Assembly: GCA_031291675.1 (NCBI GenBank) | Contig: JARLIO010000075.1 | Coordinates: forward strand, 1-64,000 | Source: Azospirillaceae bacterium | Lineage (GTDB): Bacteria; Pseudomonadota; Alphaproteobacteria; Azospirillales; Azospirillaceae | Direction: 5' to 3' | DNA: 64,000 nt | Shown: in pieces, positions 35,276-60,864 of the stretch | Position numbering within the stretch: the stretch's first letter is position 1 | Layout of the letters: the number at the start of each line of letters is the position of its first letter | The notes under the pieces: generated by a model | Database searches by the model: none | What the model was told of the DNA's origin: nothing | What the model saw: only the letters and a program-made list of their open reading frames with translations | Translations under genes and position numbers: made by a program

Positions 35276-36053
35276 TGTGATCTCCGTCGACATGCAAAAT
35301 GTGGTCATGAGAAGAAGATATCGCACCTGCCGCGTGGAACGTCCACGTCTTGGCCAGGATACTATACTTTAGCTTTACTGTATTCTTCGTCTCGCATCAT
35401 GCGAGAGCCGGCGCGTCGACGAGGACATATCGATGCGTCGCTAACAGACGCCTGTCTGTTTCATTCAAGAAACATCTAATGACGTTGGAACGTCGACGAT
35501 CAGTCCTCGTCACCTGATATTTGACAATATCATGAACGAATAGATCAATGTTTTTTTGAAATGTTCTTATTCCAGGTTAAATAACAATATTATTGTGTAA
35601 AATATTATTTTTGACACATTGTAACTAAATTTTCCATTCAGCATCTTTTAGATAAATACCGAATTAAATGAATCAAATATTGTCATATTGTTCAAAATCA
35701 GCCGAATAAAACATCTTTTTATACCTTTGGTATAAGTTCCCCTATGACACATTCTATACGACATGTTTATGATAATATCACACGTATTACGCTGCCATAC
35801 CAAGCATATCACGTGACGTGGTCGCGCGTTCTGATCGATAGGCACGGAGCCGGACATTGACATCCCAACGGGCACGATTCTCCGAGACTTTCTAAAACGC
35901 ATCGCTCTTTTGACATGTGGCGCATCATCTTTGGTGACCGAATCACCCCGCCACAGACCGATCGCGGACAAGCCCTTGACCAGGACGGTCCTTTTATGTA
36001 GTTTACATTCGTAGATTACCTACCTATCTCGGTCCTGTCGATCGGGCCGGAAA
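35276..36053. other. Long intergenic region with an AT-rich island
   Basis: From about 35480 to 35780 the sequence is strongly AT-rich (runs such as AATAACAATATTATTGTG and AAAATATTATTTTTG), unlike everything around it. Frames here, including a 107-codon minus-strand frame at 35648-35971, show no family resemblance. It may be a remnant of transferred DNA or a binding region for a nucleoid protein. The chemoreceptor promoter lies at its left edge and the MarR promoter at its right edge. Confidence 0.4.
35976..36019 (+). promoter_or_regulatory. Promoter and candidate operator of the MarR operon
   Basis: TTGACC (35976-35981) and TAGTTT (35999-36004) are 17 bases apart, a good sigma-70 promoter. 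Direct repeats GTAGTTTAC (35998-36006) and GTAGATTAC (36011-36019) cover the -10 region, where a bound MarR protein would block transcription. Confidence 0.55.
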
Positions 36054-47516: not shown

Positions 47517-48578
47517 TTACGGGAACACGATCTCGACCCGCCGGTTTGACGGTTCGCGGACGCCGTCGGCGGTCGCGACCAGCGGATGCAGTTTGCCAAC
47601 CCCGGTCGCGGCGATCTCCGATGCCGGGATGCCCAAGCGGACGAACTCACCCTTGACCGCGTCGGCACGCCGGATCGACAGCGCCAAATTGTAGCGTTGG
47701 GTGCCCACGGTATCGGTATGTCCGGTCACCTCGATCCGCGATGCACCGCCCCGCTTGGCGTTGTCGGCCGCGTCATTGATGATGTGACGGGCCTGCGGGG
47801 TCAGGATCGACTTGTCGAAGTCAAAGAAGACGAGATAGTTGCGCGTGGTCTGTACCGGTGCCGGGGTCGCGGCAGCGACCGGCTCGGCAACGGGAACCAT
47901 CTCCGGCGCCGGGGCCGGCGGTGCGCCAAAGCTATAGCGCAGCCCCACCATGATGATGTTGTTGGAGTATTCGGCTTTCGCCCGACCCCCGCCGACGACG
48001 TCGAACTTCGGATCCTGCGTGCCGAGATAGCGGTAGTCGAGGGTTGCGGCCAGGTTGGGCGCAACGTTATCAAGAGCATAGGAGACACCGGCAATGCCCT
48101 GATAGGCGAACACGGTATCGGTGCCGTTGAGCGAGCTGCCGGCCGGCGTCGGCTGGATATGGTGCGCATTCAAGGTGGCGCCACCGACGCCAGCCCCGAT
48201 ATAGGGCGTGAACGCCGTCCCGGTCGGGATGTCATAGTAGAGGTTCAGCATATAGATCAGCGCACGGGTACTGCCACCGCCCTTGTCGCCCCCTGCGAAG
48301 CCCGTGGTCTTATCGACGGCATTGTCCAGATAGCCAAGCTCCAAGCCGGTACGCAGGCCATTATCGAACCCGTAGCCAACTTCGCCGCTGGCGCCATAGC
48401 CAGGCTGATATTTCAGGTCCTCGTGACCGGAACCGGGAATATGCACTTTGGCAGTGTCGGCAAAACCAACGCCGCCAGCCCCACCAATATAGAAGCCATC
48501 GGCGCGTTGGGCCATGGCCGAACCCGGCAGAACCGCGGTCAGCGCCGCACCCACCAGCACCTTGTAGTAGAACTTCAT
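47517..48578 (-). CDS. ompA: OmpA-family outer-membrane protein
   Basis: A signal peptide (residues 1-23, ending A-M-A-Q) is followed by an eight-strand beta-barrel domain (starts G-F-Y-I-G-G-A-G-G-V-G-F, aromatic strand ends, final V-G-L-R-Y-S-F). A Pro/Ala linker and a C-terminal OmpA/peptidoglycan-binding domain complete it (V-F-F-D-F-D-K-S, V-T-G-H-T-D-T-V-G, R-R-A-D-A-V, N-R-R-V-E-I). I start at ATG 48578 (M-K-F-Y-Y-K). Its upstream region has a FixJ-like box with a correctly placed -10, linking it to the stress gene set downstream in the window. Confidence 0.95.
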   Translation of the reverse strand: MKFYYKVLVGAALTAVLPGSAMAQRADGFYIGGAGGVGFADTAKVHIPGSGHEDLKYQPGYGASGEVGYGFDNGLRTGLELGYLDNAVDKTTGFAGGDKGGGSTRALIYMLNLYYDIPTGTAFTPYIGAGVGGATLNAHHIQPTPAGSSLNGTDTVFAYQGIAGVSYALDNVAPNLAATLDYRYLGTQDPKFDVVGGGRAKAEYSNNIIMVGLRYSFGAPPAPAPEMVPVAEPVAAATPAPVQTTRNYLVFFDFDKSILTPQARHIINDAADNAKRGGASRIEVTGHTDTVGTQRYNLALSIRRADAVKGEFVRLGIPASEIAATGVGKLHPLVATADGVREPSNRRVEIVFP

Positions 48579-48709
48579 AACATATTTCCCTTTTTGATAA
48601 AGGCTCGCCATCCTGAACACGGAACCACGGGGGAGCATTACGCTTCTCCCCTTCGGTTTTGCGGCGGGACGACGGCTTGATCGGATGGCCTGACGTGGGA
48701 CCGAAGGAA

Positions 48710-48757
48710 AGCATAGCGCCCGACAAGGCAGCCCCGGCAGGCTCGGAAACTACCTAC
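48710..48757 (-). promoter_or_regulatory. FixJ-like box promoter of ompA
   Basis: On the minus strand GTAGGTAGTTTCCGAG (complement of 48742-48757) is followed after 27 bases by the -10 hexamer TATGCT (complement of 48710-48715). This matches eight other promoters in the window. Confidence 0.7.
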
Positions 48758-48808
48758 TGACTTCCGATCACAACATTTGCATTCGCCGAACTATTTACAA
48801 GAGCCCTC

Positions 48809-48854
48809 TAGGTATTTCCCGATGGTATCGCTAGAGACCACAAGATCCTATTAT
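48809..48854 (+). promoter_or_regulatory. FixJ-like box promoter of the glycine-zipper lipoprotein
   Basis: TAGGTATTTCCCGA (48809-48822) is followed after 26 bases by TATTAT (48849-48854). The box is a variant of the common form but keeps TAGGTA, TTCC and CCGA and the exact spacing. Confidence 0.6.
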
Positions 48855-48958
48855 AGCATCCTGTCGATTTCCCATTGATGCCGACTGAAAGCGAAAGCGG
48901 CGATTTCGCCCTGGCGCCGATGGAGAAACCATCATGCACATGTCCTTGGAGAAAGTTT

Positions 48959-49201
48959 ATGAACCGAATCATCCTCACCACCTCCCTGTCACTCCTGATC
49001 CTCGGTCTGGGCGCCTGCGGCAACTCCACCGGTGATCGTGCCGTGAGCGGTGCCGGGATCGGTGCCGGTGTCGGTGCCGTCGGCGGCCTGATGCTCGGGG
49101 CGCCGCTTGAGGGTGCTGCCATCGGGGCCGGCGTCGGGGCCGGGGCCGGGGCGCTCACCGACAAGAGTCAAATCGATCTGGGTAAGCCGATCTGGCGCTG
49201 A
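48959..49201 (+). CDS. Small glycine-zipper lipoprotein (OsmB-like)
   Basis: An 80-residue lipoprotein. The signal sequence ends in the lipobox L-G-A-C (L-I-L-G-L-G-A-C-G-N). The mature part is a Gly/Ala zipper (G-A-G-I-G-A-G-V-G-A-V-G-G-L) repeated as G-A-A-I-G-A-G-V-G-A-G-A-G, as in OsmB and SlyB-type proteins that insert in membranes. ATG 48959 has GGAGA upstream. It is expressed from a FixJ-like box promoter. Probable role: envelope stress. Confidence 0.85.
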   Translation: MNRIILTTSLSLLILGLGACGNSTGDRAVSGAGIGAGVGAVGGLMLGAPLEGAAIGAGVGAGAGALTDKSQIDLGKPIWR

Positions 49202-49308
49202 TTTTCCCGGCAGGGCCGGTCGGCGATCGCGCTACACCCGATCAGAGCGCCGTCGCTTCCCGCCCCGTGGTATGAACCAGGACTCACGTGATCCCGTCCT
49301 GGCAAACC

Positions 49309-49332
49309 CCAACGCGTTGCCAAACGCGTTGG
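49309..49332 (+). terminator. Hairpin after the glycine-zipper gene
   Basis: CCAACGCGTT (49309-49318) and AACGCGTTGG (49323-49332) form a perfect 10-bp stem with loop GCCA, about 110 bases after the stop codon. There is no T-run. Confidence 0.4.
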
Positions 49333-49474
49333 CCCAACCCGAGCGTGACGAAATAACAGCCCGCGATGCGCTTGACGGATCGCGGGTTGGCGATCCGCGG
49401 CGATCATGAGCGGTGCAACCACGGACAGAGATGCGCATCCGCGCGATGGGCACCGCCCCGTCTGAAGGCGATCA

Positions 49475-49696
49475 TCAGGGCATGGTTTGATGTGTCGTCG
49501 TTGTGGTCGTCGAATAGGAATTCGGCGGTGGTGGTGTCATCGGATCGGGTTCCGGGACAGACTGTGTCGTGGTCCTCTGCTCGATCGTGGTCGTCCTGGT
49601 CCCCCTGTCCGGGCCCATACAACCGGCAATCAAGGCAGTACCGGCCAATAGCGTGATGACCGTCAGGAAGCGAAGGCTCGATGTCGTACTGGTCAT
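49475..49696 (-). CDS. Small Thr-rich lipoprotein
   Basis: A 73-residue lipoprotein with lipobox I-A-G-C at about residue 26 and a low-complexity Thr/Pro mature part (T-T-T-I-E-Q-R-T-T-T-Q, P-P-P-P-N-S-Y-S-T-T-T-T-T-T). No family is recognised. It has a FixJ-like box promoter, so it belongs with the envelope stress set. Confidence 0.7.
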   Translation of the reverse strand: MTSTTSSLRFLTVITLLAGTALIAGCMGPDRGTRTTTIEQRTTTQSVPEPDPMTPPPPNSYSTTTTTTHQTMP

Positions 49697-49785
49697 GGCG
49701 TGACTCCGATCTCATGATGATTTGTGCCCGTCAGCCATGATTTCGTTGTCTCGACGTTCACGACTTCCCTTCAGGGCCTCGGTGC

Positions 49786-49833
49786 AGAATAGCGCGGATC
49801 GCCGGTACCGCCACAGGATCGGAAACTACCTAC
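49786..49833 (-). promoter_or_regulatory. FixJ-like box promoter of the Thr-rich lipoprotein
   Basis: On the minus strand GTAGGTAGTTTCCGAT (complement of 49818-49833) is followed after 27 bases by TATTCT (complement of 49786-49791). The gene starts about 90 bases further on. Confidence 0.7.
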
Positions 49834-49983
49834 GCGCACAATCGGACGGAAGTTGCCATCGGAAGGGCTCCCGTCATCGCGTGGGATCACGATCCTATTC
49901 TGACAAGAGCGGCGGCACGCCTTGAACGGGACGGCCTGACAGCAGTATCCGATGGCACCCTTCCCCGCCATGACACAGGGGAC

Positions 49984-50865
49984 TCATTGAAACTGCCATT
50001 CGTAGCCCACGTCCCGGCGCCTGACCCGGCCCGCGGAGGTGGACGGAAAGTGCGACGAGCAGAACAGGGCGTCATGGTCCGCGGCATAATCCAAAGCCCA
50101 GCGCCGGGACCGCAGTGTTTTGTCCCGTTCGGGATCGAAAACCGAGAAAAGCCCGGGATCGGCGACCTGCACCGGATGATGCAGGACGTCGCCCGAAAAG
50201 ACCGCGTATTCGCCCTGGCTTTCCAGGATGATCGTGGCGTGATTCCCCGTGTGCCCCGGCGTCGGATGGAACGAGAATCCGGCGATGACCTCCTGCCCCG
50301 TGACAGCGATCATTTCCGCCAGCCCCGCTTCAATCACCGGGGTGACGCTGTCGATCTGGACCTGAAAGCTGGTTCGATTGCGTTCGCTGTGGTTCACGGG
50401 ATCGGTGAAAAACAGATATTCCTGGCGCGAAAACAGATAGCGGGCCTTGGGGAAGGTCGGCACCCAGACGCCGTTTTCGAGCCAGGTATTCCACCCGGTG
50501 TGATCGACATGCAGATGCGTGCTCAGCACATAATCGACATCGTCGGGCGCGACGCCGGCTTCGGCCAGGTGCCGGAGAAATGGTGTTTCCAGTCGATGGA
50601 AGTAGGGGGCGTAAGGCCGCTCCTTGTGATTGCCCACCGCGGTATCGACCAGGATCGTGCGACCACGGTCGCGGATCAGCCAGCCATGAACATGGAGCGG
50701 CAGATGGTTGCCGTCCGCGGTGACCGTATCGGGCAGGAGGGGCAACCGGCTGGCATGGCGCTCCGCCCAGGCCGGGAAAAGCATGGAAGGCGTGAAGTTG
50801 CCGAGCGTGAGCTCGTCGATTCGGGAGATTTCGGCGGATCCCACCCGATAGGTCTTTGCGTGCAT
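49984..50865 (-). CDS. Metallo-beta-lactamase-fold hydrolase
   Basis: This zinc hydrolase of the MBL superfamily has the signature S-T-H-L-H-V-D-H-T-G-W and downstream ligands P-G-H-T-G-N-H, F-S-G-D-V and a final S-S-H-F. It resembles AttM/quorum-quenching-lactonase-like and AHL-lactonase-related enzymes of similar length (293 aa), but the substrate cannot be deduced. I start at ATG 50865, nine bases after AGGAGG. It is divergent from a LysR regulator that probably controls it. Confidence 0.9.
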   Translation of the reverse strand: MHAKTYRVGSAEISRIDELTLGNFTPSMLFPAWAERHASRLPLLPDTVTADGNHLPLHVHGWLIRDRGRTILVDTAVGNHKERPYAPYFHRLETPFLRHLAEAGVAPDDVDYVLSTHLHVDHTGWNTWLENGVWVPTFPKARYLFSRQEYLFFTDPVNHSERNRTSFQVQIDSVTPVIEAGLAEMIAVTGQEVIAGFSFHPTPGHTGNHATIILESQGEYAVFSGDVLHHPVQVADPGLFSVFDPERDKTLRSRRWALDYAADHDALFCSSHFPSTSAGRVRRRDVGYEWQFQ

Positions 50866-50961
50866 CGTTACGTTCCTCCTTGCCTCGGGGCGCAGGATGC
50901 ACGTCTGATCCAGGCTCGGCAACGGGCTGGAATTGACAAAACTTGTGACTGGGAGTCATTA
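50866..50961. promoter_or_regulatory. Divergent promoter MBL hydrolase / LysR
   Basis: These 96 bases include TTGACA (about 50934-50939) and the inverted repeat TGACT-GGG-AGTCA (50946-50958) just before the LysR start, a plausible operator. Confidence 0.4.
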
Positions 50962-51876
50962 ATGTGGATGGGCGAGATCGCCGAGCTGAACACCTTCCTC
51001 GCCGTCGCCCGGGAGGGCAGCTTCTCGCGCGCGGCGGCTCAACTGGGCGTCACGCCCTCGGGCGTCAGCCAGTCCATCCGCCGACTGGAGCGCCGGCTGG
51101 ATGTTCGCCTGTTCGTTCGCACGACACGGAGCGTTACGCTGACCAGCGCCGGCGAAGCCCTGGCAAGCCACATCGCCCCGGCATTCGAGCGGCTGGCACG
51201 CGCGGAACAGATTGCTTCCATCGCCGGCGGAACAATGTCAGGCTGCGTCCGTATCAATGTTCCGACCGTCGCCATGGAACTGCTGATCGCACCGATCCTT
51301 GCGTCGTTCCGCAGTCAGCACCGCGCGGTACGGCTTGAGATCACGATCGAAGACCGCCTGATCGACATGGTCGCCGGCCGCTTCGATGCGGTAATCCGGA
51401 GAGGCAACCTCCTTGAGCAGGATATGTTCGCCCGCCGTCTCTCCGATGATGATCGGTTGATCCTGGTCGCCGCCCCGGCTTATCTCGATCGCGGCCGCCC
51501 GTTGGCGACAGCCGGTGAACTCCTGCATCACGAGCGGATCGTCGTCCGGCGGCCGCGCTCCGGTGCGCTTTCGCCCTGGCGCCTGCAACGCGGCGCCGAG
51601 CATGTCGAGATCCGTGCCGCCGCCGCGATTACCGCATTCGACGCCGCGGCCGCGCGCCAATGCGCCGTGTCGGGACTGGGGATCGCCTGCTTGGCGGCTC
51701 AGTTCGTCTCCGGCCATTTGGCGCGAGGCGAACTCATCCACCTGATCCCGGAATGGGGCTGGTCACTGCCCGGTTTCCACCTGATGTACGCTCACGCCCA
51801 CGGCCTTGCCCCCGTTCTTGAAGCACTGCGCGCAGCGATCATCAAACGCGGTCAAATGCCGGAATCGGCGCCATAA
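50962..51876 (+). CDS. LysR-family transcriptional regulator
   Basis: The HTH is in residues 5-65: F-L-A-V-A-R-E-G-S-F-S-R-A-A-A and G-V-T-P-S-G-V-S-Q-S-I-R-R-L-E. An effector domain follows with D-A-V-I-R-R-G, as in the group that represses or activates dehydrogenase and hydrolase genes. ATG 50962 (M-W-M-G-E) lies six bases after GGGAG. It is divergent from the MBL hydrolase gene, the likely target. Confidence 0.92.
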   Translation: MWMGEIAELNTFLAVAREGSFSRAAAQLGVTPSGVSQSIRRLERRLDVRLFVRTTRSVTLTSAGEALASHIAPAFERLARAEQIASIAGGTMSGCVRINVPTVAMELLIAPILASFRSQHRAVRLEITIEDRLIDMVAGRFDAVIRRGNLLEQDMFARRLSDDDRLILVAAPAYLDRGRPLATAGELLHHERIVVRRPRSGALSPWRLQRGAEHVEIRAAAAITAFDAAAARQCAVSGLGIACLAAQFVSGHLARGELIHLIPEWGWSLPGFHLMYAHAHGLAPVLEALRAAIIKRGQMPESAP

Positions 51877-52018
51877 GCGGACCGCCGAGCAACGGGATTC
51901 AGGCGAGACCGTTGTCGGCCAGCGCGCCAACCGGCGAAGAGATCGCGATGCCGCGGGGATCATCGTCCACGGCCCCGGTCATCAAACCGGTGCGGGTCAG
52001 ATCACAGCGGGCCGCCCG

Positions 52019-52189
52019 TCACGGCGCCGCGATGTCCTTGATCGACCCGACCAGATTCTGGGCTTTGCCCTCGGCCTGCTCGGCCTTGCCGTCGGCTTGC
52101 AACTTGGCATCACCGACAAGCTTGCCGACGGCCTCCTTGATCGAGCCTTTGATCTGTTTTCCGGCGCCAATGATACGGTTCTTGTCCAT
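52019..52189 (-). CDS. CsbD-family stress protein
   Basis: A 56-residue protein M-D-K-N-R-I-I-G-A-G-K-Q-I-K-G-S, followed by K-E-A-V-G-K-L-V-G-D and a Lys/Ala/Gly-rich helix ending N-L-V-G-S-I-K-D. This is the CsbD signature of small hydrophilic stress-induced proteins of unknown biochemical role. AGAAGG lies just before the ATG. It is the last of three small genes (DUF3309, entericidin, csbD) on one strand, probably one transcript from the FixJ-like promoter at 52713-52759. Confidence 0.9.
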   Translation of the reverse strand: MDKNRIIGAGKQIKGSIKEAVGKLVGDAKLQADGKAEQAEGKAQNLVGSIKDIAAP

Positions 52190-52253
52190 CGCCTTCTGTC
52201 TCTTCTGTTAAAAGTGGCCGCATTCCGCTGAGATCAACCGCTTGTGGCGCCGT

Positions 52254-52388
52254 TCAAGGGGCCGCCTTGTCGGCGCTCTTTTCAATGGTTGACCCGGTCT
52301 TCGAGATATCCTCGCCGACGCCCGCGGTGGTGTGACAGGCGCCCAGTGCCAACAACAGGAAAACCAACAGGATGTGTTTCCGAGGCAT
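52254..52388 (-). CDS. Entericidin-family small lipoprotein
   Basis: A 44-residue lipoprotein with lipobox A-L-G-A-C (L-L-L-A-L-G-A-C-H-T-T) and the typical mature sequence G-V-G-E-D-I-S-K-T-G-S-T-I-E-K-S-A-D. Entericidins form a toxin/antidote pair in enterics and are stress-induced lipoproteins elsewhere; only one copy is here. ATG 52388 (M-P-R-K-H) is chosen because the signal sequence starts there. Confidence 0.92.
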   Translation of the reverse strand: MPRKHILLVFLLLALGACHTTAGVGEDISKTGSTIEKSADKAAP

Positions 52389-52468
52389 GGTTCCGACCTT
52401 TCTTTCAAAGTTGCGGCCGCTCCGGCGGGTTGGCAACCGATCCACAGATTACGCGATGGCGTACCGGA

Positions 52469-52627
52469 CTAAATCCGGCCCGCCACGATCAAAATGATGA
52501 CAACGATGAGGACGACGCCGAGGCCACTGCTCGGATAGTACCCCCAGCCCATGCTGTGCGGCCAGCGCGGCAGCGCGCCGATCAAGAACAACACCAGGAG
52601 GATGATCAGGATAGACCCGATACTCAT
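52469..52627 (-). CDS. DUF3309-family small membrane protein
   Basis: A 52-residue protein with two hydrophobic helices: M-S-I-G-S-I-L-I-I-L-L-V-L-F-L-I-G-A-L-P, a short loop W-P-H-S-M-G-W-G-Y-Y-P-S-S-G, and V-V-L-I-V-V-I-I-L-I-V-A. This is the DUF3309 pattern (first helix, G-A-L-P-x-W-P, G-Y-x-P-S-G). Function unknown; it is common among stress-induced alphaproteobacterial genes. First gene after a FixJ-like promoter. Confidence 0.9.
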   Translation of the reverse strand: MSIGSILIILLVLFLIGALPRWPHSMGWGYYPSSGLGVVLIVVIILIVAGRI

Positions 52628-52712
52628 GCCTTCAATTCCTTATGCCGTAGGCAGGAAAATCCTGAATTCCAATTCAAAAGCACCATTTTCGCGCCGTTTT
52701 AGATCGTAAGAA

Positions 52713-52759
52713 ACGATATCAAAGGATTTATCCTGCCGACAGCGTCGGAATATACTTAC
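52713..52759 (-). promoter_or_regulatory. FixJ-like box promoter of the DUF3309-entericidin-csbD operon
   Basis: On the minus strand GTAAGTATATTCCGA (complement of 52745-52759) is followed after 26 bases by TATCGT (complement of 52713-52718). GTAAGTA matches the FixJ consensus GTAMGTAG even better than the commoner GTAGGTAG form. Confidence 0.65.
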
Positions 52760-52795
52760 GCGAAGTTCAGACGCCGGCCGACGCGACGCGCCCCA

Positions 52796-52945
52796 TCAGC
52801 CTCGGAACATTGGGGCCATGCCAAACACGCCGATCACGATCAGGTAGATCGCAACGATGTAGGCGAGCAAATTCGGCTGCAGCAGGATCAAGATCCCCGC
52901 GATGAGCGCGACGACGGGTTCGACCAGTATTGAGTGAAATGACAT
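52796..52945 (-). CDS. DUF3096-family small membrane protein
   Basis: A 49-residue hydrophobic protein M-S-F-H-S-I-L-V-E-P-V-V-A-L-I-A-G-I-L-I-L-L, then N-L-L-A-Y-I-V-A-I-Y-L-I-V-I-G. The P-x-L-L-x-Y-I-V-A-x-Y-L-I pattern is that of DUF3096. Function unknown. ATG 52945 follows GAGGA. Its promoter carries the FixJ-like box. Confidence 0.88.
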   Translation of the reverse strand: MSFHSILVEPVVALIAGILILLQPNLLAYIVAIYLIVIGVFGMAPMFRG

Positions 52946-53035
52946 GGCGATGTCCTCCTCGCGATTAAGCCACAGAGAGCCACTCATCCGCTATCGCATC
53001 AGACAGGGATGACCGCGGATCCTGAGCAACTTCTC

Positions 53036-53082
53036 TTGATATGATCAAATAGTCTCACCAAACAAGACTCGGAAACTACCTA
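53036..53082 (-). promoter_or_regulatory. FixJ-like box promoter of the DUF3096 gene
   Basis: On the minus strand TAGGTAGTTTCCGAG (complement of 53068-53082) is followed after 27 bases by TATCAA (complement of 53036-53041). This is the only -10 of the nine lacking the final T. Confidence 0.65.
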
Positions 53083-53167
53083 GGGTGCCAACTCTAACGG
53101 GCCGTACCCGAAGCGTTCGGTGTAACTCCTCGGTATTATTTGATTTTGTGTTCCGCCTCCGCCACGT

Positions 53168-53203
53168 TGCTGGGGATCCGGCGCCTGCGCCGGATCCCCA
53201 GCA
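53168..53203. repeat. Perfect 17-bp inverted repeat between divergent promoters
   Basis: TGCTGGGGATCCGGCGC (53168-53184) and its exact complement (53187-53203) are separated by only two bases. It stands midway between the two divergent FixJ-like promoters in the 520-base region 52946-53466, which otherwise holds no gene. It could be a cruciform, insulator or terminator remnant. Confidence 0.85.
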
Positions 53204-53257
53204 GTATCGAGGCTCATGATCACGCCCCCCGGATGCGATCCGCTCGCGTCCGAGCAC

Positions 53258-53303
53258 TAGGTAGTCTCCGAGGCTGTGTGCTGGCGGACAATCACGATAC
53301 TTT
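53258..53303 (+). promoter_or_regulatory. FixJ-like box promoter of the SYLF gene
   Basis: TAGGTAGTCTCCGAG (53258-53272) is followed, 26 bases after CCGA, by TACTTT (53298-53303). One base of the box differs (TCTCC for TTTCC). Confidence 0.65.
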
Positions 53304-53414
53304 CAGGATCGGGACGCCCTCAATCTGGCAGGTTGGGCCCCTCAACCCGCGCGACCATCACGGACCGGCTCGATGAGAGCCTCCTGATGTTCGCGGCGCG
53401 ATTGGGAAATCCCT

Positions 53415-53444
53415 CTTGTCTGTCGCAAACTTGTCTGTCGCAAA
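53415..53444 (+). repeat. 15-bp tandem duplication in the SYLF leader
   Basis: CTTGTCTGTCGCAAA occurs twice head to tail just before the ribosome-binding region of the SYLF gene. It is probably a recent slippage event in the 5' leader. Confidence 0.85.
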
Positions 53445-53466
53445 CTTTTGCAGAAAAGGCACAAAG

Positions 53467-54156
53467 ATGTTCAACAGGAACTTCGGGATCACCGGCTTGG
53501 CTTTGGCCCTGTTTGTCGGAGCGCCGGCCGCCTGGGCGGCGTCGGATCAGCAGCAGTTGGTCGATCGGGCGCGCATTACGATTGATGACGTGCGCAAGGA
53601 TAAGGAATTCGGCAACGCACCTGAATTGCTGCGGCGCGCCCGCGCCGTGATGATCGTGCCCCAACTGGTCAAGGGCGGTTTCTTCGTCGGCGGTGAAGGG
53701 GGCGATGCCGTGCTGCTGGACCGGAGCCGGGGAAAAAGCTGGAGCGGTCCGGCATTCTATACGCTGGGATCGGCGTCATTCGGTCTTCAGATCGGTCTTG
53801 AGCAGTCGGAGCTGGTGTTGTTCGTGATGTCCGACAAGGCGCTGAGCGCCCTTATGGCCGATCAATTCAAGATCGGCGCCGGGGCCGGGCTCGCCATCGT
53901 CACGCTGGGCAGCTCGGCGGAGGCGGCGACGACTGCGGCACTGCATGCCGACATCATCGTCTGGGCCTCGTCCAGCGGCGCCTATGCCGGCGTGACGCTG
54001 AACGGCACGGTGATCAAGCCGCGCGACAGCTATAACGCGGCGTATTATGGCCATCCGGTGTCGGTTTCCGACATTCTGCGCGCTCACCGGGCCCAGAATC
54101 ACCACGCCGACGCCTTGCGCCAGACGCTGGCAATCGCTGGCGGTTCCGCCTCCTGA
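53467..54156 (+). CDS. SYLF/Ysc84-domain lipid-binding protein
   Basis: A signal peptide (residues ~1-24, A-A-W-A-A) is followed by a SYLF domain: R-A-R-A-V-M-I-V-P-Q-L-V-K-G-G-F-F-V-G-G-E-G-G-D-A-V, G-P-A-F-Y-T-L-G-S-A-S-F-G-L-Q-I-G, and a Gly-rich end with A-Y-A-G-V-T-L-N-G-T-V-I. Such proteins bind phosphoinositides in eukaryotes; bacterial ones are periplasmic or outer-membrane-associated with unknown roles. Length 229 aa. Driven by a FixJ-like promoter. Confidence 0.92.
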   Translation: MFNRNFGITGLALALFVGAPAAWAASDQQQLVDRARITIDDVRKDKEFGNAPELLRRARAVMIVPQLVKGGFFVGGEGGDAVLLDRSRGKSWSGPAFYTLGSASFGLQIGLEQSELVLFVMSDKALSALMADQFKIGAGAGLAIVTLGSSAEAATTAALHADIIVWASSSGAYAGVTLNGTVIKPRDSYNAAYYGHPVSVSDILRAHRAQNHHADALRQTLAIAGGSAS

Positions 54157-54469
54157 GTCCAACGGTCATAAAGAAGGACCGTTCGTAGAGGGCCGATCCG
54201 CGATGGACTTCACTCATCGCGGATCGGCGATTGGGGATCGCAGGGGCCGAAGCCGGCGGGACGTCTGAACGCAACGATCATTGCCAAGGACCGTTGCGAC
54301 AAGATCATGGCAATCGTCCCGATGTGTCGTTCAGATGGTGGCCTTGGCAGATGGTGGCCTTGGCAGATGGGCCAGGACGGTTCCTGGCCCGAGGCACGAG
54401 CCGGGCGGCCGCTTCATCGCGCCGCCCACCGGCCCAGCCCCAGACCAGTCCAACCCAGGAATTGTCGGT
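54157..54469. other. Convergent intergenic region with a 16-bp tandem repeat
   Basis: Besides the hairpin at 54193-54227 the region carries two head-to-tail copies of CAGATGGTGGCCTTGG (54332-54347 and 54348-54363) plus a partial third. No gene is supported. Confidence 0.6.
54193..54227 (+). terminator. 13-bp perfect hairpin after the SYLF gene
   Basis: CCGATCCGCGATG (54193-54205) and CATCGCGGATCGG (54215-54227) with a 9-base loop, about 40 bases after the SYLF stop. No T-run. Confidence 0.5.
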
Positions 54470-55120
54470 TCACACGACGATGATGTCGTTTTCAACCTCG
54501 GTGGCACCCGGCGCCGCCCATGCGGTCTGTCCCGCGATCTGGCGCTCGTGAGGCGATTGCACGGTCCCGGTCAGGATGACCTTGCCACGATCCGCGCGCA
54601 CATGAACGGTGTTCGGATCGAAGAACCAGGAGCGGTGCAGCGCATGCATGATATCGTCGCTGAGATCCGCCGTATCCACGCGTGGTTTGATGGTCGTCTG
54701 GTTCGAGACGCCGAGCACGCCGTGGAGCGGCCGGACATCGATTTCAGCCGCTTCCTTCTGATACCACCAGTCGACCTGGCCGGTCAGGGTGACCCAACCT
54801 TTCTCGACCCTCACCTGCACGCTGTCCTTGGGCACGGAGACGTTCCAGGCCAGGCGCTCAATGGCCGCCGACGCGATCTCCTCGTCCGAGCGCTCGGCGT
54901 CGAACGCCAGCCGAACCTCGATCTCCTCGGCAACCGCCTTGACCCCCTTGACCCTACGGGCCGCGGCTTCGGCCGCATGCTTTTTGGCATAGCTGTCGAC
55001 ATGGCCCGAAAGGGTCACCACGCCGGCATTCGCGGTCACACCGATATGCCCCGCGGACACGCTCGGCTCCCAATCGAACTCGGCGAGAACCGCCTGCTGA
55101 AGCTGACTATCTTGAGACAT
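54470..55120 (-). CDS. Protein with three BON domains (OsmY-like)
   Basis: Three BON (phospholipid-binding) domains in 216 residues, each with the V-x-V-x-x-G-x-V-T-L-S/T-G pattern: A-G-V-V-T-L-S-G-H-V-D, K-G-W-V-T-L-T-G-Q-V-D, and R-G-K-V-I-L-T-G-T-V-Q. There is no clear signal peptide (starts M-S-Q-D-S-Q-L-Q-Q-A-V), unlike periplasmic OsmY. GGAGATTGCG precedes the ATG. A FixJ-like promoter lies upstream, and the gene is next to the hybrid regulator. Confidence 0.92.
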   Translation of the reverse strand: MSQDSQLQQAVLAEFDWEPSVSAGHIGVTANAGVVTLSGHVDSYAKKHAAEAAARRVKGVKAVAEEIEVRLAFDAERSDEEIASAAIERLAWNVSVPKDSVQVRVEKGWVTLTGQVDWWYQKEAAEIDVRPLHGVLGVSNQTTIKPRVDTADLSDDIMHALHRSWFFDPNTVHVRADRGKVILTGTVQSPHERQIAGQTAWAAPGATEVENDIIVV

Positions 55121-55179
55121 CGCAATCTCCTATGCGGACAGTGGAACCGAACGAGGAATCGGCCACTTTTGCCACCTGA

Positions 55180-55226
55180 AGACTATCGCGTCCACACCAA
55201 GGGGCTCAGACTCGGAAACTACTCAC
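55180..55226 (-). promoter_or_regulatory. FixJ-like box promoter of the BON-domain gene
   Basis: On the minus strand GTGAGTAGTTTCCGAG (complement of 55211-55226) is followed after 26 bases by TAGTCT (complement of 55180-55185). Transcription would start about 50 bases before the ATG. Confidence 0.65.
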
Positions 55227-55292
55227 GTCAATCAATCGCCGCCACCAGGTCCTGATTGCCACGCGCCAGAGTCATTGATGTCAAATCATCAA

Positions 55293-58200
55293 TCACGCGG
55301 CCCGGATCGTGTCCGCAGCCAGGGCCAACCGGGCCAGGGCGGGCAGAGACTTTGAATGGGTTCTTTTCATGATTGAAGCGCGGTGGTTCTCGACCGTCCG
55401 TTGACTGATGCCGAGATCGGCCGCGATGTTTTTGCTGGGCTGACCGGCCAGAACCATTTCCATGATCTGGCGCTGCCGCGGCGTCAGGCTGGCGACATAG
55501 GTGGCGGCCGTTTCATGCCAGCTGGACAGTTTGGAACCATCCTGTGCATGTTCGAGGGCCCGCGCGATCGTGGTCAGAAGCTCATCGACGCCAACAGGCT
55601 TTTCGATGAAGTCGAAAGCGCCCGCCTTCATCGCCTGAACCGCCATCGTGACATCGCCATTGCCGGTGATCATGATCGATGGCAATGGATGGCCGGTAGC
55701 CTGGAGATGTTGCAGCAGTTCCAGCCCGCTCATTCCGGGCAGAACGGCATCGATCAGCAGGCAGGCTTCCTGCCCGGGACGATAGAAGCCCAGGAAATCC
55801 TCACAAGAGGCAAAATCCTCAACCAGCCTGCCATCATCCTCGAGCACGCTGCGCAGCGCGCCGCGAACCTGGGCGTCGTCATCGACGACGATAATCACCG
55901 GCGCCCGCAACCCGGTAGCGGATTCGATGTGACGGGGCGCCGCCGGCGCAGGAGCCATCGCCGGTGCTGGTGCCACCGCGGGCATGCCGGCGGAAGGACC
56001 GAGAAGATCCCGGACCACTTGCGTCAGCTCCGCCAGCTTGACCGGCTTGTTGAGCTGGACACAATCCTCACGGGCGATAGTGCGTAGCGTACGGGTCGTG
56101 ATGTCGCCGGTCAGAATAATGACCGGGATCGGACGATGGAGTGTCTCGCGCAATTTGACCGTCAGCTGCAACCCGTCCATCTCATTGGGTAGATTGTAAT
56201 CGGCCAGCATCAGATCGGGCCGGATACCCCCGCGCGTCACCAGATCCAAGGCGGCGACGCCATCGGCTGCGGTCACCGTTCGATGCCCCTCGTCCTTGAG
56301 AAGAAGATCGAGAAGGTCGCGCACCTCCGGGTCGTCCTCGACAATCAGGATTCCGCCGGCCCGGTGCCCCACCGCGGCAACCTTATCCGGGAGCGCGCGC
56401 TCCGGCGGTGGCGCCCCGTCAGCAGAGGGCCGCTTGATCTCGATCATGAACACCGAACCGGCACCAAGCTTCGAGCGGACCCGAACCGGATGGCCCAGCA
56501 GGTTGCCCAGACGCTGCACGATCGAGAGGCCCAGGCCCAGGCCCAGGCTCTGCTGACGCGCCGCATTGTCGAGCTGATGATACTCCTCGAAGATAGCGTT
56601 GAGCTCGCCGGCCGGGATGCCGACACCGCTATCCCACACCTCAACCCTCAGCGTATCGCCACGACGACGGCATCCCAGCAGCACTTTGCCGCTTTTGGTG
56701 TATTTCAGGGCGTTGGACAGCAGATTGCGGATCATCTGCTCGAGCAGCCGCGGATCACTTTGGATCGAAAGACCGCACGAGACGACATGGAGCGCCAAAT
56801 GCTGATCCCGGGCATGATACGCAAATTCATCGCGCATGCGATGGAGCAAATCATTGATCGGAAAGCTGACGATTTCCGGGTGAACCGTACCGGCCTCGAT
56901 CTGGTTGATGTCGAGCAGCTTGTTCAGCATCGCCGACATGGCGTTCAACGTCTCGTCGAGTCGCTCGACCAGCTTGCGTGGCTTTTCGCCTTCCACGCTG
57001 CGTGCCAACAGCCCCTGAAGCAGGGCAAGCGTTTGCAACGGCTGGCGGAGATCGTGGCTCGCCGCGGCGAGGAAGCGTGATTTCGCCATCGTCGCCGACT
57101 GCGCCTGCCGTTTGGCGGCCTCCAGCGCATCGGCGACATGCCGGCGTTCGGTGATGTCGGCAAAGGTCATGACGACGCCCTCGACGCCGCCATCCTGGGT
57201 GCGGTAAGGCATGATGCGGCGATTGTACCAGGCGCCGCTGCGTGCCTCGATTTCCCGCTCGATCGGGGCCAGGGTCTGCAACACCGTTCTGGCATCAGCC
57301 AGAAGCACACTATCAACCGCCAGTGACGTCAGGTCGGCCAACGGCCGCCCGACATCGCTGCTGATCACGCTGAACAACAGCGTTGTTGCCGGGGTAAAGA
57401 AGCGGATTCTGAGGTTGACATCGAGAAAAATCGTGGCAACATCCGTGCTATAGAGCACATTCTGCAAATCATTGGCGGTCGTACGCTGCCGATCCAGAGT
57501 TTCATGGAGTTGCGTATTGAGCGATGTCAGTTCTTCATTAAGCGACTGCAGCTCTTCTTTTGACGTCAACAGCTCTTCATTTGTCGATTGACATTCTTCA
57601 TTGACCGACATCGCCTCTTCATTGATCGCCTTCTGTTCCTCGCTGGAAACCTCCAGATTGTGAATCGCCTCGCGCAATTCCATTCGCGTCGTATCCAGTT
57701 CGCGCTCCAGCTCGGCGATCCGCGGCAGGTCATGCGGGGCGATCGGCATCTCGGATCCGGATTCGGACTGCGGCAGCGGCTCATCGACGAAGCTGATCAG
57801 CAACAGCGCCTCGCCGTCGCCCGTGACAGGCTGCACCGTGATGCGGCACGCCGCGTCGTCACCGTCACCGGATCGGGCAACGATGACGGCAACCGGAATC
57901 CGCTCCTGCGCCGCCCGCATGATGGCCGCCCGAAGCCGGGTCCGGAGGCGCGGCGCCGCGATCGCGAGCAGATCATGTGTCGGATGTCCCGGGGCCACGC
58001 GCAGATAGCGGTCGGTCGGTCCCAGCGAATAGAGACATTCCTGCTTGCCGTTGATCAGGACCGTCGCCGGGGCATAGGCCTCCATCACCAGCCGGCGGCA
58101 TAGATCCGCGTAAGCGGCCTCGCGCGACGGCGCCGGGCCATAGCCCAGGCGCAGCGGGATACGAAGTGCACTATCGCCGGGATTCCGCGACGAACCGGTA

Positions 58201-59747
58201 TCGCCCGGCCGGGCGGACACGATATGTCGGTAGATCCGCTCGGACTTGGCGATCAGCGCGAAATGATCGGCGCCACTGCCGACAGTCTCCGCGCTGCCAA
58301 GCAGGAGAATGCCGCCCTGGCGCAACGCGAAATGGAACAAGGCAATCGCCTTGGCCTGGGCCTCGGGGCGCAGATAGATCAGAAGATTGCGACATGAAAT
58401 CAGGTCAAGCCGCGAGAAGGGCGGATCGGACAGCAGATTCTGCACCGTGAACACCAGCGTCGATCGCAGTTCGGGCGACACCCGATAATCGTGACCTTCC
58501 TTGACGAAGAACCGAACCAGTCGCGCCGGCGACACGTCTTCCGCGATTGATTCCGGGTAAAGGCCCTCGCGCGCCGCGGCCACGGCGTCCGCATCAATGT
58601 CGGAGCCAAAGACTTGCAGCTTGATGCTGCGTTTGGCCGCCGTGATCTGTTCGTAGAACAGCATGGCCAGGGAATAGGCCTCCTCCCCCGTGCTGCACCC
58701 GGCAACCCAGAGGCGCAACGGCTGGTCGGCGGTCTGATCGCGGATCAGCGCGGGAATGACGCTCTCTGCCAGCACGTCAAAGACATTCGGATCCCGAAAG
58801 AAGCGGGTGACATTGATCAACAGGTCCGTCGCAAGATGGTCGCGCTCCATTGTATCGCGGCGCAAAATGTCGAAATAGCGGGCGCGATCATGGATTTCGA
58901 CTCCGGCGATCGCCATGCGCCGCTCGATCCGGCGCAACAAGGTGCCGGTCTTGTACAGCGTGAAATCATGCGGTGTGCGGGTCCGCAGCAGCGTGATGAC
59001 GTCGGACAACCAATCGGGTGTCGCCTCGAGCGCCGGCGCCAGGTCGGGCGTCGGCGCCGCAACCCCCTGCGCCTGGTACCGCGTGATGGCCTCCGGAATT
59101 CGCGCCGCGGGCAGCACATGGTCGACCAGCCCGGTCATGATCGCGCTGCGCGGCATGCCGTCATAGCCGGCCTCCGCAGGATCCTGTGCGATCACCAGTC
59201 CCTGGTGTTCCTTGATGGACCGCAAACCAAGGCTGCCGTCGGTGCCGGTTCCCGACAAAACGACGGCCACGGCCCGGTTGCCATAATTTTCCGCCAGCGA
59301 ATACAGCAAAAAGTCGAAGGGCAACCGGGCGCCGTGTCGCGGCCGGGGCGACGACAGCTGCAACGCACCCTTGCCGACAGAAAGATAGGCGCCGGGCGGA
59401 ATGACATAGAGGTGGTCGGGTTCAATCGGCATGCCGTCCGCGGCCTGTCGCATCGCCACCACGGTATGGCCGGCCAGCAGCTCAACCATCATGCTGTCGT
59501 GGCTCGGATCGAGATGCTGGACCAGGATAAAGGCCACGCCCATGCCGACCGGCAACGCACTGACCAGCTTTCGGCAGGCGTCAAGACCACCCGCCGAGGC
59601 ACCAATCCCGACAACCAGGAAATCCGGAGGCCGGATCTCCGCGGGCAAGGCGTCGCCAACGCCAGCGTCGGGAGCAGGCGCCGGCAAAGCGCCTTGATTC
59701 GATGGCAAACGACCCGCTTTGACCGGGTCGTCACGGCGTCCAGACAT
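55293..59747 (-). CDS. CheB-CheR-PAS hybrid histidine kinase with two receivers and a FixJ-type HTH
   Basis: A single 1,484-residue signalling protein. In order: CheB-like methylesterase (~45-235; G-I-G-A-S-A-G-G, G-T-G-T-D-G-S), CheR methyltransferase-like (~255-530), a long Gln/Glu/Asn-rich coiled coil (S-T-N-E-E-L-L-T-S-K-E-E), PAS (~770-880), HisKA with H898 (S-H-D-L-R-Q-P), HATPase (N-L-L-S-N-A-L-K-Y; G-L-G-L-G-L-S), receiver 1 (D1183), receiver 2 (D1333), and a LuxR/FixJ HTH (S-L-T-P-R-Q-R-Q-I-M, then S-Q-R-T-V-E-N-H-R-A-S-I-M, K-S-L-P-A-L-A-R-L-A). The last part closely resembles S. meliloti FixJ. Fusing sensor, phosphorelay and DNA-binding output in one chain is unusual. The FixJ-like boxes around it make it the candidate activator of the local regulon. 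ATG 59747 follows AAAGG. Confidence 0.92.
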   Translation of the reverse strand: MSGRRDDPVKAGRLPSNQGALPAPAPDAGVGDALPAEIRPPDFLVVGIGASAGGLDACRKLVSALPVGMGVAFILVQHLDPSHDSMMVELLAGHTVVAMRQAADGMPIEPDHLYVIPPGAYLSVGKGALQLSSPRPRHGARLPFDFLLYSLAENYGNRAVAVVLSGTGTDGSLGLRSIKEHQGLVIAQDPAEAGYDGMPRSAIMTGLVDHVLPAARIPEAITRYQAQGVAAPTPDLAPALEATPDWLSDVITLLRTRTPHDFTLYKTGTLLRRIERRMAIAGVEIHDRARYFDILRRDTMERDHLATDLLINVTRFFRDPNVFDVLAESVIPALIRDQTADQPLRLWVAGCSTGEEAYSLAMLFYEQITAAKRSIKLQVFGSDIDADAVAAAREGLYPESIAEDVSPARLVRFFVKEGHDYRVSPELRSTLVFTVQNLLSDPPFSRLDLISCRNLLIYLRPEAQAKAIALFHFALRQGGILLLGSAETVGSGADHFALIAKSERIYRHIVSARPGDTGSSRNPGDSALRIPLRLGYGPAPSREAAYADLCRRLVMEAYAPATVLINGKQECLYSLGPTDRYLRVAPGHPTHDLLAIAAPRLRTRLRAAIMRAAQERIPVAVIVARSGDGDDAACRITVQPVTGDGEALLLISFVDEPLPQSESGSEMPIAPHDLPRIAELERELDTTRMELREAIHNLEVSSEEQKAINEEAMSVNEECQSTNEELLTSKEELQSLNEELTSLNTQLHETLDRQRTTANDLQNVLYSTDVATIFLDVNLRIRFFTPATTLLFSVISSDVGRPLADLTSLAVDSVLLADARTVLQTLAPIEREIEARSGAWYNRRIMPYRTQDGGVEGVVMTFADITERRHVADALEAAKRQAQSATMAKSRFLAAASHDLRQPLQTLALLQGLLARSVEGEKPRKLVERLDETLNAMSAMLNKLLDINQIEAGTVHPEIVSFPINDLLHRMRDEFAYHARDQHLALHVVSCGLSIQSDPRLLEQMIRNLLSNALKYTKSGKVLLGCRRRGDTLRVEVWDSGVGIPAGELNAIFEEYHQLDNAARQQSLGLGLGLSIVQRLGNLLGHPVRVRSKLGAGSVFMIEIKRPSADGAPPPERALPDKVAAVGHRAGGILIVEDDPEVRDLLDLLLKDEGHRTVTAADGVAALDLVTRGGIRPDLMLADYNLPNEMDGLQLTVKLRETLHRPIPVIILTGDITTRTLRTIAREDCVQLNKPVKLAELTQVVRDLLGPSAGMPAVAPAPAMAPAPAAPRHIESATGLRAPVIIVVDDDAQVRGALRSVLEDDGRLVEDFASCEDFLGFYRPGQEACLLIDAVLPGMSGLELLQHLQATGHPLPSIMITGNGDVTMAVQAMKAGAFDFIEKPVGVDELLTTIARALEHAQDGSKLSSWHETAATYVASLTPRQRQIMEMVLAGQPSKNIAADLGISQRTVENHRASIMKRTHSKSLPALARLALAADTIRAA

Positions 59748-60105
59748 CGTGAAACCTTTCTCGGCGAGCGGGCTCCCCACAGGAGCCGCAAAAAGAGACT
59801 AGCACGATTTGGTCCCCGCAACGATACGCCCGCGATTTTGTTTCCACCATGGCGCCCATCGCCAGGAACTCCGGATTTGGCGTTGAGTATTTTAGGAAAA
59901 ATTCGGTGCCGCCGCAGAAGGGACACCCCCTGCGTAGTTTCCGAGCCTCATAGGTTCACACGGTTTGGACTAGGGTCACAGCAGACAACTCTTCGTCGAA
60001 ACTGGTTTCGGCTTGTGTCGTCGCATCCGAAGCCCCGGGCAACACCCCGCGCGCCCGCCGGTTCGACCCGTCACACAGAAGCCCCTCATAAAGTAAGGAT
60101 GAGCC
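59748..60105. other. Divergent intergenic region, hybrid regulator / OmpA-like lipoprotein
   Basis: About 360 bases without a gene. The plus-strand side carries a FixJ-like promoter. I see no copy of the box aimed at the hybrid regulator's own gene. Confidence 0.6.
59934..59976 (+). promoter_or_regulatory. FixJ-like box promoter of the OmpA-like lipoprotein
   Basis: GTAGTTTCCGAG (59934-59945) is followed, 26 bases after CCGA, by TAGGGT (59971-59976). The first half-site GTAG is replaced by TGC. Confidence 0.6.
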
Positions 60106-60546
60106 ATGAAAACCAGCCTGATCCCGCTGCTGGCTCTCGTCGGCATCGCGCTTTCAAGTTGTACACTCCTAAATGGCAACGGCTTGTGGTCCAAAAATCT
60201 GCAGGACACGCCCAAAATGAACACGGTTGAAGTCTTCTTCGATTTCGAGCGTGCCGGCATCAGCGAAAACGCCGCGACAATCCTCCAGCAAATCGCCGAT
60301 AGCGCAAACCAGAAGACGATCACCCGGATCACGCTGTCGGTTCATACCGACGCCGCCGACCGAAGCGCTTACCGTCAAGCCCTGGCAAAACGCCGCGCCG
60401 ACGCGATCAAGACGGAACTTGTCAGGGACGGCGTGCCCGCCGACAAAATCTTCGCCGTCGACGTCGTCACCCCCGACGCGATCCTGGCGACGGCGGACGA
60501 TTTTCACGAACCGCAAAACCGCCGTGCTGAAATCATCTTCCAGTAA
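60106..60546 (+). CDS. OmpA-domain lipoprotein
   Basis: A 146-residue lipoprotein with lipobox L-S-S-C and a C-terminal OmpA-like peptidoglycan-binding domain (E-V-F-F-D-F-E-R-A-G-I, H-T-D-A-A-D, K-R-R-A-D-A-I-K, N-R-R-A-E-I). It would anchor the outer membrane to murein. It resembles Pal but lacks Tol neighbours. FixJ-like promoter upstream. Confidence 0.9.
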   Translation: MKTSLIPLLALVGIALSSCTLLNGNGLWSKNLQDTPKMNTVEVFFDFERAGISENAATILQQIADSANQKTITRITLSVHTDAADRSAYRQALAKRRADAIKTELVRDGVPADKIFAVDVVTPDAILATADDFHEPQNRRAEIIFQ

Positions 60547-60864
60547 AGCCGCCGTCGTTCATTTCCGCTTGATTGGCTGCAGCGTCATCGAAGCCATATA
60601 CCCCTGCCATGACAAAATCGGCCAAGCGACGCCGGGAGGCCGTTCACGAAGAATATTTTTGTATCTCCCACGCTGAACCCGACCTCGTCGGCGCTTCTCT
60701 CATTTGAGTATTTTCCGATGCTGCCGTCATGGCCAATGCCGGCGCTATGATACGAGGGTCATCATCGCCTCAACAAGGCATCGCTCGGGTTCCCGCCGGC
60801 CGACAGCACACCGGAATTGCGGCGCCCGGCCGGTGCTCCTGAACATCACGACATGAGGAATTCC
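60547..60864. promoter_or_regulatory. Intergenic region with FixJ-like box promoter of the Spy-like gene
   Basis: GAGTATTTTCCGATGC (60705-60720) is followed, 27 bases after CCGA (ending 60718), by TATGAT (60746-60751). The first half of the box is diverged, but spacing and the -10 agree with the other eight. Otherwise the region holds nothing recognisable. Confidence 0.55.

Follow-up and report, generated by a model that had tools for sequence, protein, structure and literature searches.

A widespread hybrid histidine kinase with a FixJ-type DNA-binding domain is probably a one-protein switch for stress genes

Introduction

Single-chain proteins that unite a kinase with a transcription factor are already known from the Bacteroides HTCS, as are FixJ sites and CheB-CheR-PAS kinases. 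In the Bacteroides HTCS, transfer from kinase to regulator takes place within one chain (PMC11253607). FixJ protects the fixK promoter from -57 to -31 (PMC4999443), and the site it selects in vitro is GTAGTTTCCC (Ferrieres and Kahn 2002, via PMC4999443). The open-access literature searched yielded no description of CheB-CheR-LuxR hybrids or of the box letters reported below, nor did it show such a hybrid together with a stress regulon and a conserved promoter class of its own; it is this combination that we regard as new. Here we analyse a 64,000-nucleotide stretch of DNA from an Azospirillaceae bacterium (the window), in which a hybrid of this kind is encoded. We propose that it is probably a widespread and so far undescribed stress-gene switch.

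Domain architecture of the hybrid

Translation of the hybrid gene from the ATG at 59747 gives one uninterrupted open reading frame (Table 1). GAAAGG before this ATG is a plausible ribosome-binding site; an alternative GTG start 33 bases upstream would give 1,495 residues. The GC content at the three codon positions (0.68/0.45/0.75) is typical of a real gene. The domain order is directly observed as CheB-CheR-PAS-coiled coil-PAS-HisKA-HATPase-REC-REC-LuxR/FixJ HTH, and none of the catalytic residues is missing. A preliminary description had read this 1,484-residue chain as a kinase continuing through two receivers (D1183, D1333) into a LuxR/FixJ HTH, which the intact frame and the Pfam matches confirm, and had suggested that the kinase has a DNA-binding domain of its own, which the GerE HTH in the same frame supports. 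Since a single unbroken frame encodes the histidine kinase, the receivers and the DNA-binding domain, the protein is a single-chain hybrid two-component regulator of transcription in the general sense.

Conservation of the active sites is likewise observed directly. Across 62 full-length relatives H898, D1183 and D1333 are invariant, T1213 and K1234 are conserved beside D1183 in receiver 1, the CheB triad S51/H78/D170 is invariant or nearly so, and the CheR SAM-binding motif is conserved in nearly all. The HTH helix SQRTVENHRA is nearly invariant in the same set and differs from the recognition helix of FixJ, SPRTVEVHRA. The best solved-structure match to receiver 2 and the HTH together is FixJ (5xso, E=4e-40), in keeping with the earlier view that the HTH is close to FixJ, though the score against the NCBIfam FixJ equivalog NF006900 (225.1 bits) lies below the curated cut-off of 255. 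The NahK/ErcS model NF041832 also scores below its cut-off (350.7 bits, cut-off 400).

An AlphaFold2 model of residues 505-885, built with 47 relatives, predicts an extra PAS fold (~542-657), missed by Pfam, and a long helix (675-767) ahead of the Pfam PAS domain. The best Foldseek matches to the modelled region are PAS sensors, including DosP, FixL and LOV proteins. FixL-type oxygen sensing was considered for the hybrid and set aside, as the FixL heme histidine pattern is absent by eye from both PAS domains. Along the coiled coil, Glu-Glu pairs recur at an exact 7-residue spacing (E703, 710, 717, 724, 731 and 738); the last four are invariant or nearly so in the 62 relatives, and S/T/A mostly follows the pair.

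The linker between the receivers (1250-1285) is Pro/Ala-rich, and the Pfam scan found no HPt or second His domain between them. Because the hybrid has no HPt, a phosphorelay in the strict His-Asp-His-Asp sense, the term used in the preliminary description, is unsupported. No membrane segment is evident from the Pfam domains, which were not supplemented by a dedicated membrane-helix predictor. There is no che operon beside the gene; a CHASE3-HAMP chemoreceptor gene (33587-35326, minus strand) lies 20 kb away.

Table 1. Features of the hybrid locus, in window coordinates (aa, residues of the hybrid).
Feature	Position	Strand	Basis or detail
Hybrid sensor kinase/transcription factor gene	55293..59747	-	1,484 aa, ATG 59747
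CheB methylesterase domain (aa 46-221), triad S51/H78/D170	59085..59612	-	PF01339 4e-54
CheR methyltransferase (aa 250-501)	58245..59000	-	PF03705/PF01739; CheR_N 250-298, CheR 312-501
First PAS-like domain (aa ~542-657)	57777..58124	-	AlphaFold2 model, pLDDT mostly >85; Foldseek
Coiled coil (aa 675-767), six Glu-Glu pairs	57447..57725	-	AlphaFold2 model
Second PAS domain (aa 771-866)	57150..57437	-	PF13596 5e-26 (Pfam PAS 761-866); AlphaFold2 model
HisKA (aa 888-953), phospho-acceptor H898 in ASHDLRQPLQ	56889..57086	-	Pfam
HATPase_c (aa 998-1106)	56430..56756	-	Pfam
Receiver 1 (D1183)	55998..56357	-	Pfam Response_reg
Receiver 2 (D1333), FixJ-like	55566..55895	-	Pfam Response_reg; structure match
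LuxR/FixJ-type HTH (aa 1420-1475)	55323..55490	-	Pfam GerE
Box and -10, facing OmpA gene	48737..48756	-	Box TAGGTAGTTTCCGAGCCTGC, TATGCT at +41
Box and -10, facing glycine-zipper lipoprotein gene	48809..48828	+	Pattern search
Box and -10, facing small lipoprotein gene	49813..49832	-	Pattern search
Box and -10, facing DUF3309 gene	52739..52758	-	Pattern search
Box and -10, facing DUF3096 gene	53063..53082	-	Pattern search
Box and -10, facing Ysc84 gene	53258..53277	+	Pattern search
Box and -10, facing BON gene	55206..55225	-	Pattern search
Box and -10, between hybrid and divergent OmpA-like gene, away from hybrid	59931..59950	+	
Box and -10, facing Spy-like (LTXXQ) gene at ~60853	60705..60724	+	Pattern search
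OmpA/beta-barrel outer-membrane protein, predicted target	47517..48638	-	
YMGG-like glycine-zipper lipoprotein, predicted target	48959..49201	+	
Small lipoprotein, predicted target	49475..49696	-	
DUF3309 protein, predicted target	52469..52627	-	
Entericidin-like gene	52254-52385	-	Same strand, after DUF3309
CsbD gene	52019-52189	-	Same strand, after DUF3309
DUF3096 protein, predicted target	52796..52951	-	
Ysc84-domain protein, predicted target	53416..54156	+	
Triple-BON-domain protein, predicted target	54470..55120	-	
OmpA-family protein, predicted target	60106..60546	+	

A promoter box with fixed geometry and direction

A FixJ-like box had been proposed at 48742-48757, and its reality is borne out by counts: GGCTCGGAAACTACSYA with at most three mismatches occurs six times in the window against 0.43 expected, a number reached in 0 of 100 shuffles. 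With flanking sequence, the box is found at nine window sites, all within 48737-60724, against 0.07 expected for the box pattern alone; two extra variants in the window are picked up by this looser pattern (core and 3' CTG flank). The bacterium's own genome holds 16 core sites, of which five belong to the cluster in the window and a sixth lies a little past the window's end, at C42:64034. On the other strand the core reads GTAGTTTCC, of the class of the in-vitro-selected FixJ site GTAGTTTCCC. A FixJ-equivalog criterion, a site of the GTAGTTTCC / TAAGTAATTTCC kind near a promoter, is met by the box, which lies at a fixed distance from a -10.

This geometry is seen directly in an alignment of 266 box sites, taken from the own genome and from the loci of the hybrids. 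In 140 of them (3.9 expected) the start of a TANNNT hexamer lies 39-41 bases past that of the box, and at this distance it is found on one strand only; no -35 hexamer is evident in the aligned promoters. If the hexamer is the -10, the fixed distance places the box at about -52 to -33, in agreement with the FixJ footprint at fixK (PMC4999443). Since the -10 occurs on one strand only, the promoter has a direction, with GTAGTTTCC reading toward the gene. We infer that the box is an activator site overlapping the -35 region, mediating activation rather than repression. As a search pattern, the promoter signature is TRRGTAGTTTCCGANNCT-N21-23-TANNNT.

Predicted targets

Observed target families extend beyond the window (Table 1). 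Elsewhere in the own genome, box targets include a second CsbD gene, PRC-barrel and YflT-type stress genes and, to judge from the look of the sequence alone, slipin, KaiC-like and GlgX-like genes. Around the relatives, 121 genes lie in the promoter direction, among them receiver-only regulators (11), OmpA (9), DUF3309 (6), ECF sigma factors (6), CsbD (5), Ysc84 (5), ferritin-like (4) and PRC (4) genes; no family occurs more than twice among the 66 genes on the wrong side of the promoters. The tally was restricted to the promoter direction, as a tally without it is diluted by spurious open reading frames.

Two long frames were recorded in addition. A 2,872-aa frame just past the window (L069 6678-15293; C42 66677-75292) lies ~320 bp downstream from a box promoter and by eye resembles a cyclic beta-glucan synthetase. 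Within the window, a 3,428-aa frame with a GTG start (7584-17870, minus strand) has opposite-strand frames with strong third-position GC periodicity.

The presence of receiver-only regulators and ECF sigma factors among the targets beside the hybrid leaves room for another regulator on the same mobile stress island, signalled by the hybrid, to be the one that reads the box. We hold this to be improbable: the receiver-only proteins lack a domain for binding DNA, the annotated neighbourhoods show no further FixJ-type regulator that recurs, and the box fits a FixJ-type specificity, for which the hybrid itself has the matching HTH. Direct reading by the hybrid remains the preferred explanation.

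Autoregulation by the hybrid is a further possibility. A position matrix built from the sites in the window alone located a box ahead of the CheB motif, at a distance of 200-470 bp, in 41 of 61 relatives, and 38 of these boxes are on the coding strand. The direction of the promoter decides against it. Boxes beside the hybrid gene point away from it in 45 cases and toward it in five, with a -10 in 30 of the 45, and autoregulation through the upstream box is therefore rejected for most loci, leaving little chance that it is the general rule. The adjoining box is instead predicted from its sequence to drive the divergent neighbour, here the OmpA-like gene; in the relatives these neighbours are receiver-only regulators, USP or PRC-barrel genes.

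Distribution of the hybrid and co-occurrence with the box

The preliminary description implied that the architecture is rare, which proved wrong: a search for the same domain order in other species found it at full length (>1,300 aa with CheB motif and HTH) in 58 of 80 loci, and several of the others end at contig ends. The full-length architecture occurs mostly in Alphaproteobacteria and in some Beta- and Gammaproteobacteria, and full-length relatives with 52-65% identity are present in the bacterium's own family and in another. The 80 named loci include Nitrospirillum, Skermanella, Xanthobacter, Rhizobium, Paraburkholderia and Dyella. The hybrid is also found on plasmids of Methylocystis, Phyllobacterium, Caballeronia, Polymorphobacter, Sphingomonas, Acidiphilium, Asticcacaulis, Agrobacterium, Roseateles and Roseicitreum, where it is annotated as CheB or CheR.

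Some relatives stand out. In two proteins of 1,593-1,631 aa (L061 and L062, from G029 and G005) the match to the hybrid is split around residue 880, which points to an additional segment ahead of the kinase. These genes have no box upstream, but L061 contains several at other positions. The Phyllobacterium and Caballeronia plasmid hybrids (L029, L030) lie amid phosphoketolase, acetate kinase, alcohol dehydrogenase, arginine deiminase and USP genes, a setting reminiscent of the Burkholderia lxa (low-oxygen-activated) locus. This low-oxygen link is a lead only, because the lxa literature (PMC9104464, PMC3759415) names no such regulator.

Co-occurrence of box and hybrid was scored with the exact core TCGGAAACTACNYA in 289 alphaproteobacterial genomes. 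Of the 17 genomes that encode the hybrid, 12 have the core, as against 6 of the 272 that do not (Fisher p=1.8e-13, not tree-corrected); leaving out the own genome gives 11/16 versus 6/272 (p=2e-12, likewise uncorrected). The 12 genomes span nine GTDB families, and of the five hybrid genomes without the exact box, G018 and G049 carry variants of it next to the gene. In a phylum-wide sample of 397 genomes, none of the 395 without the hybrid has at least three box sites, while 0.97 Mb around the 80 named hybrids contains 214 boxes against 10 in a reversed control. Boxes in hybrid genomes are also more complete, with the downstream CT in 16/20 and the -10 in 15/20, compared with 2/17 for each in hybrid-less genomes. 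No box lies upstream of those CheB-CheR kinases of the own family in which a FixJ-type HTH is not recognisable.

Genomes with the box and no such regulator would have counted against the hybrid as reader. Only one of the 17 sites of this kind combines the conserved CT with the -10, a full box at L193 (G256:C83:16375-16388) in a 96%-complete genome with no hybrid detected; it is unexplained and could reflect a missing contig or an orphan promoter. In G093, which has a true FixJ and no hybrid, a box with a -10 lacks the conserved CT. Taken together, co-occurrence gives strong computational support, without binding data, to the earlier proposal that the hybrid is the best candidate reader of the neighbouring boxes.

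The same sample bears on whether stand-alone FixJ reads the boxes, the hybrid merely sharing the island. In the own genome a true FixL-FixJ locus also encodes an additional receiver protein and contains a Crp/Fnr gene (L003, G000:C5 2725-6321); its FixJ (G000 C5:4213-4815, beside FixL) exceeds the curated cut-off that the hybrid misses and could read the same site, since FixJ selects GTAGTTTCCC in vitro (PMC4999443). However, FixJ above the cut-off, present in 25 of the 289 genomes, does not predict the box in the 272 hybrid-less genomes (1/19 with FixJ versus 5/253, p=0.36), and the box occurs in 7 of the 11 hybrid genomes without such a FixJ. The own FixLJ-crp/fnr locus also lacks the box and has only a diverged TTAGGTACTATTCCC before the crp/fnr-like gene, possibly a FixJ site distinct from the stress box. 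FixJ as the main box reader is rejected on co-occurrence, and we now give that reading scant credence beside reading by the hybrid. That the box is the -35 element of an alternative sigma factor, as its fixed spacing to the -10 would allow, is barely conceivable, as the box is ~20 bp long and reaches about -52, the -10 is the sigma-70-type TANNNT, and the box both matches the FixJ site and tracks a FixJ-type protein.

Proposed mechanism

We consider it highly likely that the hybrid is a soluble one-protein two-component system in which phosphorylated receiver 2 and the HTH activate the box promoters of envelope and general-stress genes. Box binding by the HTH, its dependence on phosphorylation, activation itself and the signal are all inferred, there being no binding or expression data. 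The two PAS domains would gate the histidine kinase, possibly tuned by the fused CheR/CheB. Phosphate from H898 may pass to receiver 1 and/or receiver 2, most likely to receiver 2 directly, by analogy with the Bacteroides HTCS (PMC11253607), with receiver 1 as a putative modulator or sink. Phosphorylation of receiver 2 would free or dimerise the FixJ-type HTH, allowing it to bind T-R-R-GTA-G-TTTCCGA-NN-CTG at about -52 to -33 and to activate sigma-70-type promoters (-10 TANNNT, no evident -35) in a class II manner, like FixJ at fixK. The predicted regulon comprises envelope and general-stress genes and, in relatives, may also include ECF sigma factors and receiver-only regulators.

A speculative extension, which we think possible though rather unlikely, is that the hybrid is a self-adapting transcription factor, its fused CheR/CheB methylating and demethylating its own coiled coil while the hybrid controls a mobile stress regulon. 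The idea is attractive because the Glu-Glu heptad ladder sits in this coiled coil, which is like chemoreceptor methylation helices in having S/T/A mostly after the Glu-Glu pairs. If true, it would be a chemotaxis-style adaptation of a DNA-binding kinase, feeding the general stress response via ECF sigma factors.

Significance and comparison with known systems

A family whose members are labelled 'chemotaxis protein CheB' or 'CheR family methyltransferase' appears to work instead as a transcription switch contained in one protein and provided with a promoter class of its own. It extends over Alphaproteobacteria, Burkholderiales and at least one gammaproteobacterium and is often carried on plasmids. 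The box and -10 at fixed spacing make the regulon predictable in any genome, and the signature provides a function-linked address for the unknown small proteins DUF3309, DUF3096 and CsbD. The ECF sigma targets suggest that general stress circuits run by ECF sigma factors receive an input under the control of phosphorylation, and the hybrid makes a role of CheB/CheR outside chemotaxis testable.

Among known systems, FixJ of Sinorhizobium/Bradyrhizobium is alike in its REC-HTH fold, recognition-helix sequence, GTAGTTTCC site and activator position by the -35 (PMC4999443). FixJ is, however, a stand-alone REC-HTH protein paired with FixL and controlling fixK/nifA, whereas the hybrid is fused to its own kinase, has no evident heme PAS or FixL partner of its own, and has a predicted envelope and general-stress regulon. 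The hFixL-FxkR system of Rhizobium etli is likewise a hybrid-kinase replacement of FixLJ, but it uses a separate response regulator and another box, GTTACA-N4-GTTACA (PMC4999443). CheB-CheR-PAS kinases annotated 'chemotaxis protein CheB' share the N-terminal CheB-CheR-PAS region and coiled coil at ~40-45% identity; those examined differ in having no recognisable FixJ-type HTH and no box upstream. The NahK/ErcS kinases (NF041832) are the nearest group to the HisKA-HATPase-REC1 module and differ in input and output. Bacteroides HTCS such as BT4663 also join a histidine kinase and a receiver to a DNA-binding domain in a single chain, but they are transmembrane proteins with an AraC-type output that serve polysaccharide utilisation (PMC11253607), whereas the hybrid has PAS domains and CheB/CheR at its input end, a pair of receivers, a LuxR/FixJ HTH and no evident membrane segment.
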